Assembly (NCBI GenBank): GCA_018646865.1
Contig: JABGTW010000082.1
Span: forward strand, 1 to 36,348
Reading direction: 5' to 3'
Origin: Cryomorphaceae bacterium
GTDB lineage: Bacteria > Bacteroidota > Bacteroidia > Flavobacteriales > Flavobacteriaceae
DNA: 36,348 nt
Part shown: positions 3,495-10,283 of the stretch, piece by piece
How the letters are laid out: every line of letters starts with the position of its first letter
Numbering within the stretch: position 1 is the stretch's first letter
Notes under the pieces: model-generated
What the model was told of the DNA's origin: nothing
The model's input: only the letters and a program-made list of their open reading frames with translations
The model's database searches: none
Position numbers and translations under genes: made by a program

Positions 3495-3668
3495 ATGAAA
3501 TATTTTCAAAAATCTGACATTTTTCTAATTGCTGCTGCATTTGTATCCTTTGTCTTATCTGTTACACTATGGTTTCAAGGTTATAAGGATGAAGGTTTAT
3601 TTGTTGGCTTATGGGTTCCTTCAATTCTATCATTTGGATGTTATTTTAAACAAATGCTAAAAAAATAA
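3495..3668 (+). CDS. Small membrane protein, unknown function (57 aa)
   Basis: An ATG-started frame of 57 codons encodes a protein beginning MKYFQKSDIF and ending KQMLKK. Two hydrophobic segments are seen (about residues 9-26 and 36-50) joined by a charged turn (GYKDEG). The termini are basic, so both probably face the cytoplasm. The TAA stop is one base before the ATG of the next small gene, so the two are almost certainly co-transcribed. I do not recognise a named family. Support is the clean frame, the hairpin-membrane topology and the coupling to its neighbour. Confidence 0.65.
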   Translation: MKYFQKSDIFLIAAAFVSFVLSVTLWFQGYKDEGLFVGLWVPSILSFGCYFKQMLKK

Positions 3669-3669
3669 T

Positions 3670-3897
3670 ATGGGTGATACTTTTATATTTATCATGGGAT
3701 TAATCTGTACTGGTACAGTTGTAGCAGCTACATTTTTATCAATAAATGAACTCAAAGATGTTAACGAACCACAACTTGAAACAATGAATATGGCTGAAGG
3801 AACTAAGAAGCATTTAAAACTTATTTCAACTGCTATATTTATTATAATAGGCTTTGTTTCTGTTGGATTGCTTTGTTTTTATTTTATATTTGCTTAA
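3670..3897 (+). CDS. Small membrane protein, unknown function (75 aa)
   Basis: 75 aa with two transmembrane segments (about residues 4-24 and 50-73) and a hydrophilic middle (ELKDVNEPQLETMNMAEGTKKH). No motif that I recognise. It begins one base after the 57-aa gene, and its TAA stop overlaps the ATG of the trp leader peptide by one base (TAATG). Leader translation could therefore be coupled to this gene if one transcript spans both. Alternatively the trp promoter lies inside the 3' end of this gene (see the TATATTTG box at 3885). A functional link to tryptophan is not shown. Confidence 0.65.
   Translation: MGDTFIFIMGLICTGTVVAATFLSINELKDVNEPQLETMNMAEGTKKHLKLISTAIFIIIGFVSVGLLCFYFIFA
3862..3892 (+). 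promoter_or_regulatory. Putative trp operon promoter (TTG-N19-TATATTTG)
   Basis: TATATTTG at 3885-3892 matches TANNTTTG exactly. GTTG at 3862-3865 stands 19 bases upstream as a possible -33 element. The predicted start point would be at or within a few bases of the leader-peptide ATG at 3897, giving a leaderless or nearly leaderless leader transcript. The box lies inside the 3' end of the 75-aa gene. The region is AT-rich, so a chance match is possible. Confidence 0.35.
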
Positions 3898-3941
3898 TGA
3901 AATTAATTAACACATACTGGTGGTGGAATTACGATAATTAA
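3897..3941 (+). CDS. trpL: trp operon leader peptide (MKLINTYWWWNYDN)
   Basis: A 14-codon frame followed by TAA, with three consecutive TGG Trp codons at 3918-3926 (residues 8-10). Trp is rare and uses one codon, so three in a row in a tiny frame directly before trpE and a terminator is the hallmark of ribosome-mediated attenuation. Stalling at the Trp codons when charged tRNA-Trp is low would choose between the competing RNA hairpins just downstream. The ATG overlaps the stop of the upstream small gene (TAATG). No Shine-Dalgarno is seen, as usual in Bacteroidota. The peptide probably has no function beyond being translated. Confidence 0.85.
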   Translation: MKLINTYWWWNYDN

Positions 3942-3997
3942 ATATTCGTGATTGAACTATTAGTTAATAGCTTGTCTCACGACAGGCTTTTTTTTTT
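3929..3997 (+). promoter_or_regulatory. trp attenuator: alternative RNA pairings
   Basis: Three short segments can pair in exclusive ways. Segment 1, TTACGA (3929-3934, just after the Trp codons), pairs with segment 2, TCGTGA (3946-3951; one G-U). Segment 2 can instead pair perfectly with TCACGA (3977-3982), which is the loop plus the tip of the terminator stem, so that pairing blocks the terminator. A small inner hairpin CTATT/AATAG (3957-3970) lies between. A ribosome stalled on the Trp codons covers segment 1 and frees segment 2, giving antitermination. One that reaches the stop at 3939-3941 covers segment 2, giving termination. Pairings are read by eye; energies were not calculated. Confidence 0.7.
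3969..3997 (+). terminator. Rho-independent terminator of the trp leader
   Basis: AGCTTGTC (3969-3976) pairs with GACAGGCT (3981-3988): 8 pairs including one G-U, with a 4-base loop TCAC. A run of ten T (3988-3997) follows directly. This is the clearest intrinsic terminator in the window and it sits before, not after, the operon. Its 3' edge is only 12 bases from the trpE ATG, so the formed hairpin would also lie inside the trpE ribosome-binding area. Confidence 0.88.
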
Positions 3998-4000
3998 GCT

Positions 4001-5401
4001 ATGAAGAAAATAAAATTAAAAAATTATCATAAAAAAATCTTTGCAGACACTATAACTCCTGTGGAGGTTTATCTAAAAATAAGAGATATTTATCCAAATA
4101 GTTTACTATTAGAAAATAGTGATTATATGTTGGCAAATAATAATTACTCGTTTATTTGTTTCAATCAAATCGGTTACATCAAAATTAAAGACAACGAAAT
4201 TAATATTTCATATCCTGGAGAAGTAGTTAGTTCAAGAACATTGACAAAAAATGAAAAAGTTTCAGATGTAATTCATAACTATCTAGATAACTTTGAAACA
4301 TCAGATTCAGATTTCAAATTTTTAAATAATGGACTATTTGGTTTTATGAGTCACGAATCAGTTAAATATTTTGATTCAATTAATATTGAAAATAAAGATG
4401 ACCTTGATATACCAGACATATATTATGGACTTTATCAAAATATAATTGCAATAAGCCAATACAATCATGAAGCTCATATCTTCTGCAACACAATTAAAAA
4501 TTCTAACAACATTGAATCAATTGAAGCTATTTTAAACAACAAGAGTTATTCAGTATTTAATTTTAGAAAAAAAGGTAAATCTGAATCAATAATAACTGAT
4601 GATGAATATCTTGAGTATGTTAACAAAGCCAAGGAGCATTGTAAAAGAGGAGATGTTTTTCAGCTTGTCTTATCGAGAAGGTTTATGCAAAAATTTAGTG
4701 GAGATGAATTTAATGTTTATAGAGCTTTAAGATCAATAAACCCTTCACCGTACCTTTTCTTTTTTGATTATGGTGATTATAAAATTTTTGGTAGTTCACC
4801 TGAAGCTCAAATTATAATTAAAGATGGTAAATCAGAAATTCATCCAATTGCTGGTACATTTAAAAGAACAGGAAATGATGAAGAAGATCATAATGCTGCA
4901 AAAGAATTAGCTAAAGATCCAAAAGAAAATTCTGAACATATTATGTTAGTTGATCTTGCTAGAAATGATTTGAGCAGAAGCGGAAATAATGTTAAAGTGG
5001 AGAAAAACAGAGAGATACAATTCTACTCCCATGTTATTCATTTAGTTTCCAAGGTTACAGCAATATTGAAGAAAAATATTAAATCTTTTAAAGTAGTTGA
5101 AGATACTTTCCCAGCTGGTACATTAACAGGAGCTCCAAAACATAGAGCTCTTGAATTGATTGAAAAATATGAGAAAGTAAATAGGAATTTTTATGGGGGA
5201 GCTATTGGATATATAGATTTTAATGGAAACTTTAATCATGCGATTATCATAAGATCTTTCTTTAGTAAAAACAATATATTGAATTACCAAGCTGGAGCTG
5301 GGATAGTAATAGATTCAATTCCAGAAAAAGAGTTAGAAGAAGTGAGAAACAAATTAGGGGCTCTAGATAAAGCATTAAATGAAGCTGAATTAATAAAATG
5401 A
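4001..5401 (+). CDS. trpE: Anthranilate synthase component I
   Basis: 466 aa. Makes anthranilate from chorismate using ammonia from TrpG; the first step of tryptophan synthesis. Chorismate-binding family blocks are complete: HPIAGTFKRTG (about residues 280-290), HIMLVDLARNDLSR (about 313-326), FPAGTLTGAPK (about 371-381), GGAIGYI and QAGAGIVIDS near the C-terminus. The N-terminal Trp-feedback motif, usually LLES, reads LLEN (residues 36-39) followed by SDY. The ATG is 3 bases after the terminator T-tract with no SD. The stop overlaps the trpG ATG (ATGA). Component I of p-aminobenzoate synthase is excluded by the operon context. Confidence 0.96.
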   Translation: MKKIKLKNYHKKIFADTITPVEVYLKIRDIYPNSLLLENSDYMLANNNYSFICFNQIGYIKIKDNEINISYPGEVVSSRTLTKNEKVSDVIHNYLDNFETSDSDFKFLNNGLFGFMSHESVKYFDSINIENKDDLDIPDIYYGLYQNIIAISQYNHEAHIFCNTIKNSNNIESIEAILNNKSYSVFNFRKKGKSESIITDDEYLEYVNKAKEHCKRGDVFQLVLSRRFMQKFSGDEFNVYRALRSINPSPYLFFFDYGDYKIFGSSPEAQIIIKDGKSEIHPIAGTFKRTGNDEEDHNAAKELAKDPKENSEHIMLVDLARNDLSRSGNNVKVEKNREIQFYSHVIHLVSKVTAILKKNIKSFKVVEDTFPAGTLTGAPKHRALELIEKYEKVNRNFYGGAIGYIDFNGNFNHAIIIRSFFSKNNILNYQAGAGIVIDSIPEKELEEVRNKLGALDKALNEAELIK

Positions 5402-5964
5402 AAAAAATATTTTTAATAGATAATTATGATTCATTCACATACAATCTTCTATACTATTTAGAGGAACTTGGATGCGAGGTAACAGTAAAAAGAAATGATA
5501 AATTTGAACTTGATGAAATAAGTAATTTTGATGCAATTTTAATTTCACCAGGACCTGGAATTCCTAGAGAAGCTGGAAAGATAATTGAGGTAATTAAAAA
5601 ATTTTATAACACTAAAAATATTTTTGGTGTTTGTTTAGGTCAACAAGCAATTGCTGAGGCTTTTGGAGGTAAAATAAGAAACTTAAAGAAGGTTTATCAT
5701 GGGGTTTCATCGAAGATAACTTTAACTGACTCGGATCTAATTTTTGATGATATTAAATCTGATTTAAATGTAGGGAGATACCATTCTTGGATAGTTGACA
5801 ATCCATTACCTCAAGTACTTAAAGTAACTTCTGTTGATGAAAATGGCGAAATTATGTCAATAAAACATAAAGATTTCAATGTCAGAGGAGTTCAATTTCA
5901 TCCAGAATCAATTTTAACACCTGATGGAAAAACAATATTAAATAATTGGATAAATACGATATGA
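5398..5964 (+). CDS. trpG: Anthranilate synthase component II (glutamine amidotransferase)
   Basis: 188 aa class I glutamine amidotransferase. It hydrolyses glutamine and channels ammonia to TrpE. The catalytic triad is visible: Cys79 in FGVCLGQQ, His168 and Glu170 in VQFHPES. The oxyanion motif SPGPGIP is at about 50-56. Length is typical of a stand-alone TrpG, not fused to trpD. It overlaps trpE by 4 bases (ATGA) and its TGA stop overlaps the trpD ATG. In some bacteria the same subunit also serves p-aminobenzoate synthesis; whether it does here cannot be told. Confidence 0.96.
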   Translation: MKKIFLIDNYDSFTYNLLYYLEELGCEVTVKRNDKFELDEISNFDAILISPGPGIPREAGKIIEVIKKFYNTKNIFGVCLGQQAIAEAFGGKIRNLKKVYHGVSSKITLTDSDLIFDDIKSDLNVGRYHSWIVDNPLPQVLKVTSVDENGEIMSIKHKDFNVRGVQFHPESILTPDGKTILNNWINTI

Positions 5965-6953
5965 AAAAAATATTAAATCGACTTACTCAATATGAAACAT
6001 TGACAGAAAAAGAATCAAGGAATATTATTATTGAAATTTCTGAGGGAAAACTTAATACTAGCGAAATTTCATCATTCTTAACAATATTCATGATAAGGAA
6101 TATAACTATTGAAGAATTAAATGGTTTTAGAAAGGCTCTTATTGAATTATCTCTTAAAATTGATCTTAATGAATTTGATCCAATTGATTTATGTGGGACT
6201 GGTGGTGATGAGAAGGATACTTTTAATATTTCAACTCTAGCTTCATTTGTAACAGCTGGTTCTGGAGTTAAAGTTGCAAAACATGGAAATTATGGTGTTT
6301 CTTCTAGTTGTGGCTCAAGTAACGTACTTGAACATTTAGGTTTAAAATTTAATAATGATTCTGATAAAATTAAAAGAGCTGTAGATAAAGCGAATATTTG
6401 CTTCTTACATGCTCCACTTTTTCATCCCGCTATGAAGAATGTTGCTCCAGTAAGAAAAGAACTAGGTTTAAAAACTTTCTTTAACATGTTAGGGCCAATG
6501 GTTAACCCATCAATGCCTAAGAAACAAATAGTAGGTGTTTACAGTTTAGAACTAGCTAGAATTTATAACTATCTATACCAGACTACTGACATTAATTACA
6601 ATATTATCCATTCAATAGATGGTTATGATGAAATATCATTAACTAAGGGTACTAAGATTTACTCAAGAGAAAGTGAATTTATTTTAGAATCTAAAGATTT
6701 TAATCTTCAAGATATTGACTCTAATAAAATATCTGGAGGAAAAAATATAGAATCATCATCTAAAATATTTATGGATGTATTAAACGCAAATGCATCCCTT
6801 GAACAAGAAAATGTTGTATGCGCTAATGCTGCTTTAGCGATTGCAATATCTAAGAATATGTCAATTATTGAAGCCTTTATGATTGCTAAAGAATCCATAA
6901 AAACTAAAAATGCACTTAAGTGTTTTAATAATCTTATAAATGTTATGCAATGA
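5961..6953 (+). CDS. trpD: Anthranilate phosphoribosyltransferase
   Basis: 330 aa from the ATG at 5961. It transfers phosphoribosyl from PRPP to anthranilate. Signature parts are LCGTGGDEKDTFNIST (PRPP-binding glycine loop) and KHGNYGVSSSCGSSNVLEHLG (about residues 101-121), then RKELGLKTFFNMLGPMVNP. A TTG at 5946 is in frame upstream, but the ATG at 5961 gives the ATGA overlap with trpG seen at other junctions of this operon and a normal N-terminus, so it is preferred. The stop overlaps the trpC ATG by 4 bases. Confidence 0.95.
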   Translation: MKKILNRLTQYETLTEKESRNIIIEISEGKLNTSEISSFLTIFMIRNITIEELNGFRKALIELSLKIDLNEFDPIDLCGTGGDEKDTFNISTLASFVTAGSGVKVAKHGNYGVSSSCGSSNVLEHLGLKFNNDSDKIKRAVDKANICFLHAPLFHPAMKNVAPVRKELGLKTFFNMLGPMVNPSMPKKQIVGVYSLELARIYNYLYQTTDINYNIIHSIDGYDEISLTKGTKIYSRESEFILESKDFNLQDIDSNKISGGKNIESSSKIFMDVLNANASLEQENVVCANAALAIAISKNMSIIEAFMIAKESIKTKNALKCFNNLINVMQ

Positions 6954-7741
6954 AGATACTAGATAAGATTATACATGATAAAAAAATAGAAATTAAAACT
7001 TTATCTGATATTGTTCCTGTTTCAGATCTAGAAAAACAAAAAGATTTTACTAAAAAATGTAAATCTTTGAAAGAGTCTATTAAAAAAAGTAAGTCAGGAA
7101 TTATATGTGAGTTTAAAAGAAAATCTCCTTCAAATGGAAATATAAATTATACATCTAATATTTCTGATGTGATAAAAGGATATGAAAAAGCTGGTGCAGT
7201 TGGAGTTTCTATTTTAACTAATAAAAAATATTTTGATGGAAGTATATCAGATATTAATGATGTTAAAACTAGTATTGAGATTCCTATACTAAGAAAAGAA
7301 TTTGTAATAAGTGAATATCAGATTATAGAAGCAAAGTCTATTGGATCAGATTCAATTCTATTAATTGCATCTATTCTTAGTAAGGAACAAATAAAAAATT
7401 ATAGTTCATTAGCTAAAAGTCTAGGTCTTGAAGTTTTACTTGAAATACATTCTATTGATGAATTAAATGAGGTTTCAAAATATGATATAGATATAATTGG
7501 TGTAAATAATAGGAATCTCGATACTCTAGAAATAGATATCAAAAATAGTATAGAAATATTTAAAAAGATACCTGGTGAATTTATCAAAATTTCTGAAAGT
7601 GGGATTAGTAAAGTAGAATCTATAGTTAAGTTAAATAAGGTTGGATATGATGGTTTTTTAATTGGTGAAAACTTTATGAAATCATCAAAACCTGAAGAGT
7701 CTGCATATAATTTTATAAAACAAGTAGAAAATGAAATTTAA
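6950..7741 (+). CDS. trpC: Indole-3-glycerol-phosphate synthase
   Basis: 263 aa TIM-barrel enzyme that closes the indole ring from CdRP. Conserved blocks: CEFKRKSPSNG (catalytic Glu and Lys, about 49-59), LRKEFVISEYQI (Lys, about 110-120), GVNNRNLDT (about 184-192), and ISESGI near the end. It is a single-domain enzyme, not fused to trpF as in E. coli. It shares ATGA with trpD. Its last 11 bases overlap trpF, the longest overlap in the operon. Confidence 0.95.
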   Translation: MKILDKIIHDKKIEIKTLSDIVPVSDLEKQKDFTKKCKSLKESIKKSKSGIICEFKRKSPSNGNINYTSNISDVIKGYEKAGAVGVSILTNKKYFDGSISDINDVKTSIEIPILRKEFVISEYQIIEAKSIGSDSILLIASILSKEQIKNYSSLAKSLGLEVLLEIHSIDELNEVSKYDIDIIGVNNRNLDTLEIDIKNSIEIFKKIPGEFIKISESGISKVESIVKLNKVGYDGFLIGENFMKSSKPEESAYNFIKQVENEI

Positions 7742-8348
7742 AGTATGTGGATTATTTGACAAAGAAAACATATTAAATGTAATGGATTTACATCCTGACT
7801 ATATTGGACATATATTTTGGGAGAAATCTGTTAGATATATTAAAGGAGATACTCCTCAAATTAATAACTGTAAGAAAACGGGAGTTTTTTACAATTCTAA
7901 TTATGATTTTATTTGTGACAAAATAGAACATCACAAACTTAAATGTATTCAGCTTCATGGAGATGAGTCACCAGAACTATGTCAGAAACTTCTTAATTTG
8001 AAAATTGAAGTAATCAAGTCTTTTAGAATTGATCAAAATTTTGATTTTGAGATTTTAAATGATTATGTGAATAAATGTGACTTGTTTTTATTTGACTCAA
8101 AATCACAGCTACCTGGAGGTACAGGAAAAACATTTGATTGGAAACTTCTAAAAAAATACAAACTTGACAAGGAGTTTTTTATTAGTGGTGGAATTGGTTT
8201 AGATTCAATAAGTGCATTAAATAGATTAGTTGATATGAAGTTACCATTATATGGTATAGATGTAAATAGTAAATTTGAAGATGAATTTAATTTAAAAGTT
8301 ATTGAAGATTTAATAAAATTTAAAGAAATTATTGACAATGAAATATAG
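7731..8348 (+). CDS. trpF: Phosphoribosylanthranilate isomerase
   Basis: 205 aa small TIM barrel that performs the Amadori rearrangement of PRA to CdRP. Active-site features: Cys7 in FKVCGLF (general base), LHGDE (about 82-86), the acid Asp in LFDSKSQLPGGTGKTFDW (about 121-138), and the phosphate-binding FISGGIG. The motif following the Cys is GLFDKEN where many relatives have GMR, a mild divergence. The start ATG at 7731 lies inside the end of trpC. The end overlaps trpB by 11 bases. Confidence 0.93.
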   Translation: MKFKVCGLFDKENILNVMDLHPDYIGHIFWEKSVRYIKGDTPQINNCKKTGVFYNSNYDFICDKIEHHKLKCIQLHGDESPELCQKLLNLKIEVIKSFRIDQNFDFEILNDYVNKCDLFLFDSKSQLPGGTGKTFDWKLLKKYKLDKEFFISGGIGLDSISALNRLVDMKLPLYGIDVNSKFEDEFNLKVIEDLIKFKEIIDNEI

Positions 8349-9519
8349 TGTTGACAAAGAAGGTTTTTATGGAAATTTTGGAGGAGCTTTTGTGCCTGAA
8401 ATGCTTTTTCCAAATCTAGAAGAATTAGAAAAAAATTATAATAACATAATTAACGATAAGGACTTTAAAACTGAATATAACAACTTGCTGAAAGATTATG
8501 TTGGTAGACCTACTCCACTTTATTTTGCCGAAAGAATGTCTGAAAAATATAAATGTAAAATATATTTAAAAAGAGAAGATTTATGCCATACAGGAGCGCA
8601 TAAAATCAATAATACAATTGGTCAGATATTGTTAGCTAAAAGATTAGGAAAAACAAGGATTATTGCTGAAACAGGTGCTGGTCAACACGGTGTAGCTACT
8701 GCTACTGTATGTGCACTTGCTGGAATTGAATGTGTTATATATATGGGTGCAGTAGATATTAAAAGACAGGCGCCTAATGTTGCTAGAATGAAAATGTTAG
8801 GAGCAAGTATTATTTCTGCTGAATCAGGAAGCAAAACACTAAAAGATGCAACTAATGAGGCTATTAGAGATTGGATAAATAATCCTTTGACAACTCATTA
8901 TATTATTGGTTCAGTTGTAGGACCGCATCCTTATCCAGATATGGTAGCAAAATTTCAATCTATTGTTTCTAAAGAAATAAAAACTCAACTTTATGAAAAG
9001 GAAGGAACAGAAAACCCAGACTATTTAATTGCAAATATTGGAGGAGGTAGTAATGCTGCAGGATTATATTATGAATATTTAGAAAATGATAATGTCAAAA
9101 TTATTTCAGTTGAAGCTGCAGGAGAAGGTATTGAATCTGGAAAAAGTGCAGCAACATCTGTTCTAGGTAAAGTTGGAATTATTCATGGCAGTAAGACCTT
9201 ATTGATGCAAACTACTGATGGACAAATTATTGAACCTTACTCTATTTCAGCAGGACTTGATTATCCTGGTGTTGGTCCACTTCATGCACACCTTTTAGAA
9301 TCTAAAAGAGCTCAATTTATTTCTATTACTGATCAAGATGCAATGAAGGCTGGATTAGAAATTTCTAAACTTGAAGGAATAATTCCAGCTATTGAGACAG
9401 CACATGCTTTTGCTGCTTTTAATTATCTAGAGTTTAAAAAAGATGATATAGTTGTTGTGAATTTTTCAGGAAGAGGTGATAAAGATTTAAATACTTACAT
9501 AGAATATTTTGATTTATAA
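8338..9519 (+). CDS. trpB: Tryptophan synthase beta chain
   Basis: 393 aa. Condenses indole with L-serine to give tryptophan, PLP-dependent. The PLP lysine is Lys89 in HTGAHKINN, catalytic Glu111 is in AETGAGQHG, and the phosphate-binding glycine loop is GGGSNAAG (about 235-242). The N-terminus MKYSVDKEGFYGNFGGAFVPEM is the normal TrpB1 start, so the ATG at 8338 is chosen over an in-frame TTG at 8332. The stop overlaps the trpA ATG by one base (TAATG), consistent with tight coupling of the alpha2beta2 subunits. Confidence 0.97.
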   Translation: MKYSVDKEGFYGNFGGAFVPEMLFPNLEELEKNYNNIINDKDFKTEYNNLLKDYVGRPTPLYFAERMSEKYKCKIYLKREDLCHTGAHKINNTIGQILLAKRLGKTRIIAETGAGQHGVATATVCALAGIECVIYMGAVDIKRQAPNVARMKMLGASIISAESGSKTLKDATNEAIRDWINNPLTTHYIIGSVVGPHPYPDMVAKFQSIVSKEIKTQLYEKEGTENPDYLIANIGGGSNAAGLYYEYLENDNVKIISVEAAGEGIESGKSAATSVLGKVGIIHGSKTLLMQTTDGQIIEPYSISAGLDYPGVGPLHAHLLESKRAQFISITDQDAMKAGLEISKLEGIIPAIETAHAFAAFNYLEFKKDDIVVVNFSGRGDKDLNTYIEYFDL

Positions 9520-10283
9520 TGAATAGAATTGATAAAAAATTAAACAAAGAAGGAAAACTTCTATCTATATATTTTACAGCTGGATACCCTGACTTAAATA
9601 ATACTCAGGAGATTATTATAAAGCTTGAAGAATCAGGAGTAGATATGATTGAAATAGGATTACCATTCAGCGATCCTCTTGCTGATGGCCCTACAATTCA
9701 AGATAGCTCTACACAAGCAATTAAAAACGGAATGAATTCAAATGTATTATTTGACCAGTTAAAAGATATAAGATCTAAAGTTTCTATCCCATTAATAGTT
9801 ATGGGCTACTTTAATCCAATTCTACAATATGGAGTTGAAGCTTTTTGCAAAAAATGTAGTGAAGCAGGAATAGATGGTCTTATTATTCCTGATCTACCGA
9901 TTAATTACTTTGAACTAAAATATAAATCTATTTTTAAAGATTATGGCTTATATAATATGTTTTTAATTGCTCCTCAAACTCCAGAAGAGAGAATTAGACA
10001 TATTGATGAAATTTCAAATGGATTTATCTATATGGTTAGTTCATCAAGTGTGACTGGCTCCAAGAACACATTTGACTCTGATCAATTAGCTTATTTTAAA
10101 AAGATTAAAGAAATGAATCTTTCTAGTAAAAGAATAATAGGTTTTGGAGTAGGAAATAAAGAAACATATAATACAGCAGTTCAGTATTCAAAAGGAGCTA
10201 TAATAGGTTCTGCATTTATAAAACACCTTAAATTAAAAGGTGTTAATTCTATAAATGAATTTATAAAATCCATAAGAAAGTAA
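9519..10283 (+). CDS. trpA: Tryptophan synthase alpha chain
   Basis: 254 aa TIM barrel that cleaves indole-3-glycerol phosphate to indole and G3P and channels indole to TrpB. Catalytic Glu45 in MIEIGLPFSDPLADGP and Asp125 in IIPDLP are present, and FGVGN/GSAFIKHL phosphate-binding parts lie at the C-terminus. It is the last gene of the trp operon. The 84 bases that follow separate it from a convergent operon and contain only weak AT hairpins, so no clear terminator is assigned. Confidence 0.96.
   Translation: MNRIDKKLNKEGKLLSIYFTAGYPDLNNTQEIIIKLEESGVDMIEIGLPFSDPLADGPTIQDSSTQAIKNGMNSNVLFDQLKDIRSKVSIPLIVMGYFNPILQYGVEAFCKKCSEAGIDGLIIPDLPINYFELKYKSIFKDYGLYNMFLIAPQTPEERIRHIDEISNGFIYMVSSSSVTGSKNTFDSDQLAYFKKIKEMNLSSKRIIGFGVGNKETYNTAVQYSKGAIIGSAFIKHLKLKGVNSINEFIKSIRK

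Follow-up and report, generated by a model that had tools for sequence, protein, structure and literature searches.

The stretch analysed here, a piece of 36,348 nucleotides that we call the window, carries seven consecutive genes, trpE, G, D, C, F, B and A, which Pfam places at 4001-10283 and which make up a complete trpEGDCFBA operon. The closest named records of its TrpE belong to flavobacterial MAGs and single cells, e.g. MED-G121 (92% identity) and MED-G11 (91%), and we take these and similar nearest records to be marine. HisG was not found in the source genome, which is 82% complete. A small gene, a short leader frame and a set of inverted segments precede trpE, and the features in question are the following:

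3670-3897, + strand: small upstream gene of 75 aa, membrane-protein-like by eye, which holds the predicted trp promoter
3885-3892, + strand: candidate sigma-A -7 box, TATATTTG, fitting the Bacteroidota TAnnTTTG and lying within the final codons of the upstream gene
3897-3941, + strand: trp leader peptide MKLINTYWWWNYDN, ATG to TAA, 14 codons
3918-3926, + strand: three Trp codons, TGGTGGTGG, the predicted stall site
3929-3934, + strand: core of segment 1, TTACGA (when the leader is free, its pairs in the 1:2 core have probabilities of 0.85-1.0)
3946-3951, + strand: core of segment 2, TCGTGA, whose partner is segment 1 or segment 3
3969-3997, + strand: predicted intrinsic terminator (3:4), an 8-bp hairpin with a T tract, from folding and sequence
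3977-3982, + strand: core of segment 3, TCACGA, in the terminator loop and the beginning of the 3' arm; antiterminator partner of segment 2
4001-5401, + strand: trpE, anthranilate synthase component I (Pfam PF04715 and PF00425)
5398-10283, + strand: trpG, trpD, trpC, trpF, trpB and trpA (Pfam GATase, Glycos_transf_3, IGPS, PRAI, PALP and Trp_syntA)

An earlier note on this DNA had described a 14-codon frame with a TGG triplet at 3918-3926 in front of trpE. Coordinates and translation confirm the frame, and its placing is borne out by Pfam, which finds trpE at 4001 heading the full operon. The triplet run is unique in the 36-kb window on both strands, where 0.02 occurrences are expected from shuffles. 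The leader ATG shares one base with the TAA of the upstream gene, and the trpE start lies 3 nt past the end of the T tract. As in classical attenuators, a short ORF rich in Trp codons is found 5' of the operon for the biosynthesis of that same amino acid, and a predicted intrinsic terminator stands ahead of the first structural gene. The 3670-3897 gene has no Pfam family above threshold, its single sub-threshold match being TMEM70, and neither has another small gene at 3495-3668, also 5' of the attenuator.

Folding of 3890-4005 gave a minimum free energy of -28 kcal/mol, far more stable than shuffled sequences (-16.05, sd 2.9; z -4.12; 0 of 200 shuffles as good). The cores TTACGA, TCGTGA and TCACGA lie where the earlier note had put them and pair in mutually exclusive ways, as it had proposed; the 8-bp hairpin at 3969-3988, AGCUUGUC-UCAC-GACAGGCU, is also as it described. 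Two of its details needed adjustment. The run of ten T at 3988-3997 is present, but its first T is paired as part of the stem, leaving nine after it; the 1:2 hairpin was right in its core but is longer than noted, because an outer stem, beginning at 3916, includes the Trp codons themselves, which pair with the stretch 3' of segment 2. When the free leader is folded, the 1:2 hairpin (core 0.85-1.0) and the 3:4 terminator (0.996-1.0) coexist.

We then simulated stalling by placing each Trp codon in the A site and masking the RNA to 13 nt beyond its first base. With the ribosome masked at any of the three Trp codons and the RNA extending up to 3982, the leader folds into the 2:3 antiterminator (-8.2 kcal/mol, pairs 0.69-1.0). 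When the stop codon occupies the A site instead, the mask covers segment 2 and the terminator alone is left. This agrees with the classical logic that the earlier note had read into the segment positions, in which a ribosome stalled at the Trp codons covers segment 1 (antitermination) and one that reaches the stop covers segment 2 (termination). In the finished leader, however, no structure is more stable than the terminator even when the ribosome is stalled, and the antiterminator has a probability of at most 0.002. Antitermination would therefore have to be kinetic, with 2:3 forming first, and we assume such a choice before segment 4 is made. In this sense, the window holds exclusive 1:2, 2:3 and 3:4 structures at a spacing compatible with stalling, between which the choice would be kinetic.

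We consider it highly probable (about 0.95) that this region acts as a ribosome-mediated transcription attenuator of the trpEGDCFBA operon. Judging from the position of the box, transcription would start at or beside the AUG of the 14-codon leader. When Trp-tRNA is plentiful, the ribosome would pass the three Trp codons, reach the stop and cover segment 2, and the 3:4 terminator would form just 5' of trpE. When Trp-tRNA is short, the ribosome would stall on the Trp codons, break 1:2 and free segment 2; the latter would then pair with segment 3 ahead of the synthesis of segment 4, and the polymerase would go on into trpE. If translation is absent, 1:2 and 3:4 would both form and transcription would stop.

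The arrangement is conserved among relatives. A search of 119 genomes, that of the window included, gave trpE-like matches in 112, from which 82 loci were taken (81 strong trpE matches and 1 partial); the other 30 genomes had weak matches only (no E better than 1e-50, and identities, where listed, mostly near 30%) and were left out, these matches, G013 included, being treated as paralogues. A short ORF with at least 2 adjacent Trp codons lies within 300 nt 5' of trpE in 75 of the 82 loci, and in 78 of 80 loci from named records, a set which partly overlaps the former (partly the same contigs), a leader lies within 330 nt. A lack of Trp codons in relatives, which the earlier note had named as grounds for giving up the idea, is thus not the general picture. 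A 76th locus, L052, has its WW leader about 500 nt upstream of trpE, and L161, an exception in the named-record set, has it 557 nt upstream. At L075 the leader picked by the script is doubtful and a likelier candidate is located farther upstream. The WW leader was not found in the stretch searched at the remaining six loci (L072, L074, L076 and L078-L080). All 19 loci fetched from the genus of the window have the leader; it carries WWW at 15 of them and an adjacent Trp pair at the other 4, one of which contains ambiguous bases. A terminator-like hairpin with a T tract, by a loose criterion, follows in 74 of the 75 leader loci, two of them low-scoring; a stricter criterion applied to the named-record set was passed by 68 of 78, and the other 10 have the same hairpin with the T tract interrupted or late.

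Some loci depart from this layout. By eye, the leader of L115, just upstream of position 1501, is degenerate (MINRYNFFWCK...) and has one Trp codon, and the hairpin there is intact. At L072, L074 and L076, whose genomes measure about 0.6 Mb, a sigma-A-like box and T-tract hairpin persist 5' of trpE (by eye), as GGCTTGTC...GCC in L074 and L076 and in weaker form in L072; perhaps these are decayed attenuators in reduced genomes. Two loci of family f2 (genomes G072 and G087) carry tandem WWW leader-plus-terminator units 5' of trpE, at L062:102-358 and at L057 between about -297 and -30 as counted from trpE, and a third genome of that family (L070) shows one unit only in the 420 nt read. No exact TAnnTTTG box was found within 60 nt of the second leader in the tandem loci, so one transcript may pass both attenuators. 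A small gene with a GIY-YIG nuclease domain lies between the trp attenuator and trpE at L161:1143-1436 (+ strand) and L052:299-595 (- strand), and by this position it would fall under trp attenuation. Finally, 800 kb of G018, a relative from the genus of the window, were searched for other leaders with three identical consecutive residues, a box and a terminator, and only the trp one was found.

Compensatory changes in the stems, for which the earlier note had proposed to look, occur in the terminator and in 2:3. In an alignment of 27 sequences chosen from the 82 loci, the terminator consensus has 9 pairs, 5 of them with compensatory changes on both sides; the consensus fold of this alignment yields the terminator only, the 1:2 hairpin not being returned. 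The 2:3 pairing was assessed by exchanging segment-3 partners among 20 distinct types at 71 of 74 loci (L011, L049 and L070 were left out): own partners sum to -182.0 kcal/mol and permuted ones to -126.5 (sd 10.2), none of 20,000 permutations being as good, while L022, L056, L058 and L081 pair worse than their own swapped mean. For the outer 1:2 stem, 5 of 5,000 permutations were as good as the own partner. The relatedness of the loci was not removed in these swap tests. At L045 segments 1, 2 and 3 read TTGCGA, TCGCAA and TTGCGA, by eye all altered together. Within the genus, TCGTG of segment 2 is invariant across 18 aligned sequences (L011, which has ambiguous bases, being left out).

Other explanations deserve to be weighed against attenuation. 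The hairpin, which ends 12 nt 5' of trpE here and similarly in the genus (where the script sets some starts 3 nt early), might act on translation, blocking ribosome binding near the trpE start with no stop of the polymerase. We regard this as improbable: by the loose criterion the hairpin carries its T tract in nearly all leader loci, and quite a few relatives have it 30-60 nt away from trpE; at such a terminator the polymerase would usually be stopped before it reached the start codon. Still less probable is that hairpin and T tract serve only to end transcripts of the small upstream gene, with the TGG run being incidental. That gene does stop exactly at the leader ATG, and run-on transcripts from it would meet the terminator too; the 75-aa ORF is conserved, running up to the leader in 17 of the 19 genus loci, with a stop that overlaps the leader ATG in 10 of the 17 and adjoins it in 6 (of the remaining two loci, L002 is truncated by a contig end). 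Against this, leader and hairpin are kept 5' of trpE in lineages without the upstream gene, seven non-genus loci having no frame of at least 40 codons that ends within 12 nt of the leader, and the 2:3 pairing covaries. Sensing by a T-box, by TRAP protein or by TnaC-like nascent-peptide arrest, all of them known from other bacteria as regulators of trp or tna genes, is just as improbable in place of codon-specific stalling, with no Rfam T-box match in 3600-4300 at E up to 10, and with the residues flanking the Trp run differing between families, which argues against peptide arrest.

The sigma-A box has been placed at -12 to -5 in F. psychrophilum, and that of F. johnsoniae runs from T-12 to G-5. 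The box at 3885-3892 therefore puts the predicted +1 at 3897, on the first base of the leader AUG; the leader would be leaderless, and its promoter would lie inside the upstream gene. In 63 of 73 loci (2 of the 75 were dropped) TAnnTTTG occurs no more than 40 nt 5' of the leader ATG, against a mean of 5.4 and a largest value of 12 in shuffles. No conserved -33 element at a fixed place was seen by eye in the genus. The gap between box and leader AUG is 4-5 nt in 16 of the 17 testable genus loci and 7 nt in the other.

This gap was compared with control ORFs, whose start was taken as the first ATG of frames of at least 100 codons and some of whose boxes occur by chance. Among ORFs with a box within 60 nt, a 4-5 nt gap is shared by 23 of 117 in 800 kb of G018 and by 5 of 52 in 400 kb of G056, another relative; with the reach cut to 40 nt, as for the leader counts, the figures are 23 of 101 and 5 of 42, which do not differ from each other (p 0.17). 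At this reach the genus leaders (16/17) exceed G018 (p 2e-8) and boxed non-genus leaders of the named-record set (32/60) exceed G056 (p 2e-5), p values that are too small because the rows are related; order-wide, non-genus leaders (10/46) do not differ significantly from G056 (p 0.27). The genus spacing stands above the G018 control, but it is one inherited layout. A leaderless layout peculiar to the attenuator, which we also considered, is weakened by the same control, since the boxed G018 ORFs with this gap show that the spacing is not special to it. Distances between TAnnTTTG and the ORF start at the G018 loci L177-L216 fall into two modes, with a sharp peak at 4-5 nt, which suggests that leaderless mRNAs are common in the genus of the window; in F. 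psychrophilum they are given as 5.5%.

Whether the attenuator is leaderless seems to us evenly balanced. Transcription would then start on the A of the AUG from a promoter lying within the closing codons of the upstream gene, and the ribosome would load at the 5' end or re-initiate, the former on transcripts from the trp promoter and the latter, coming from the upstream gene, on read-through transcripts.

Genes of this phylum rarely use Shine-Dalgarno pairing, and in such a setting the attenuator would offer a simple reporter for the coupling of ribosome and RNA polymerase. Classical-looking trp attenuation appears to be the usual state in Flavobacteriales wherever a close trpE is found (76 of 82 loci). 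This prevalence takes in a small-genome genus that the Rfam model currently misses, with a leader that is often predicted to be leaderless.

Among known systems, Trp_leader (RF00513) follows the same logic and likewise combines Trp codons, exclusive hairpins and a terminator before the trp operon. An assignment of the window to this 'Tryptophan operon leader' was rejected (13.7 bits against 41, E 9.8), no sequence relation being shown. Leaderless trp leaders are known in Sinorhizobium, where trpL of S. meliloti also has a 14-aa leader, an RNA beginning at the ATG and two mutually exclusive structures (PMC7298713); unlike the window, where the start is only predicted, that system is alphaproteobacterial and experimentally studied. 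Closer in descent, a transcriptome of Flavobacterium psychrophilum, of the same bacterial order, gives 'strong clues' for leader-peptide attenuation at amino-acid operons (PMC9723704), although the word 'tryptophan' is absent from its main text. Beyond this report and PMC2864571, no further account of trp attenuation in this group was found among the titles and passages searched, subscription journals lying mostly outside the search.

The earlier note had asked whether the family was already described. It was, in 2010, as Bacteroid-trp (RF01692), a 'Bacteroidete tryptophan peptide leader RNA' listed among the motifs of Weinberg et al. 2010 (PMC2864571). RF01692 is the top Rfam match of the window by bit score, with 26.6 against a gathering score of 49 bits; by E-value Phe_leader ranks above it (0.069 vs 0.26), also far below its own threshold. 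Rfam was run on 40 of the 82 loci, and the RF01692 threshold was reached by 0 of 10 genus loci and by 12 of 30 others (L020, L022-L026, L028, L029, L031, L037, L045 and L063). In all 12 the match lies 5' of trpE with a Trp leader, and the script found the hairpin in 11, L063 being the exception; the window agrees with them in position, in its leader and in the order of the hairpins. Under strict filters, 15 of 198 genomes drawn from across the phylum reach the threshold, and the 24 genomes with a match at E of 0.1 or better all come from the class of the window. Like the Bacteroid-trp model, which its match spans from position 1 to 131 of 131, the window has a leader ATG, TGG codons and a 1:2 hairpin with UCGU in segment 2 before trp genes; unlike it, the spacer before the terminator is shorter, and for this reason the 3' GGCUUGUC of the model is aligned out of register. 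Since none of the 10 genus loci run against Rfam pass the threshold, the genus represents a short-spacer branch missed by the model, and the window is a shortened, divergent member of the Bacteroid-trp kind that Rfam has overlooked.
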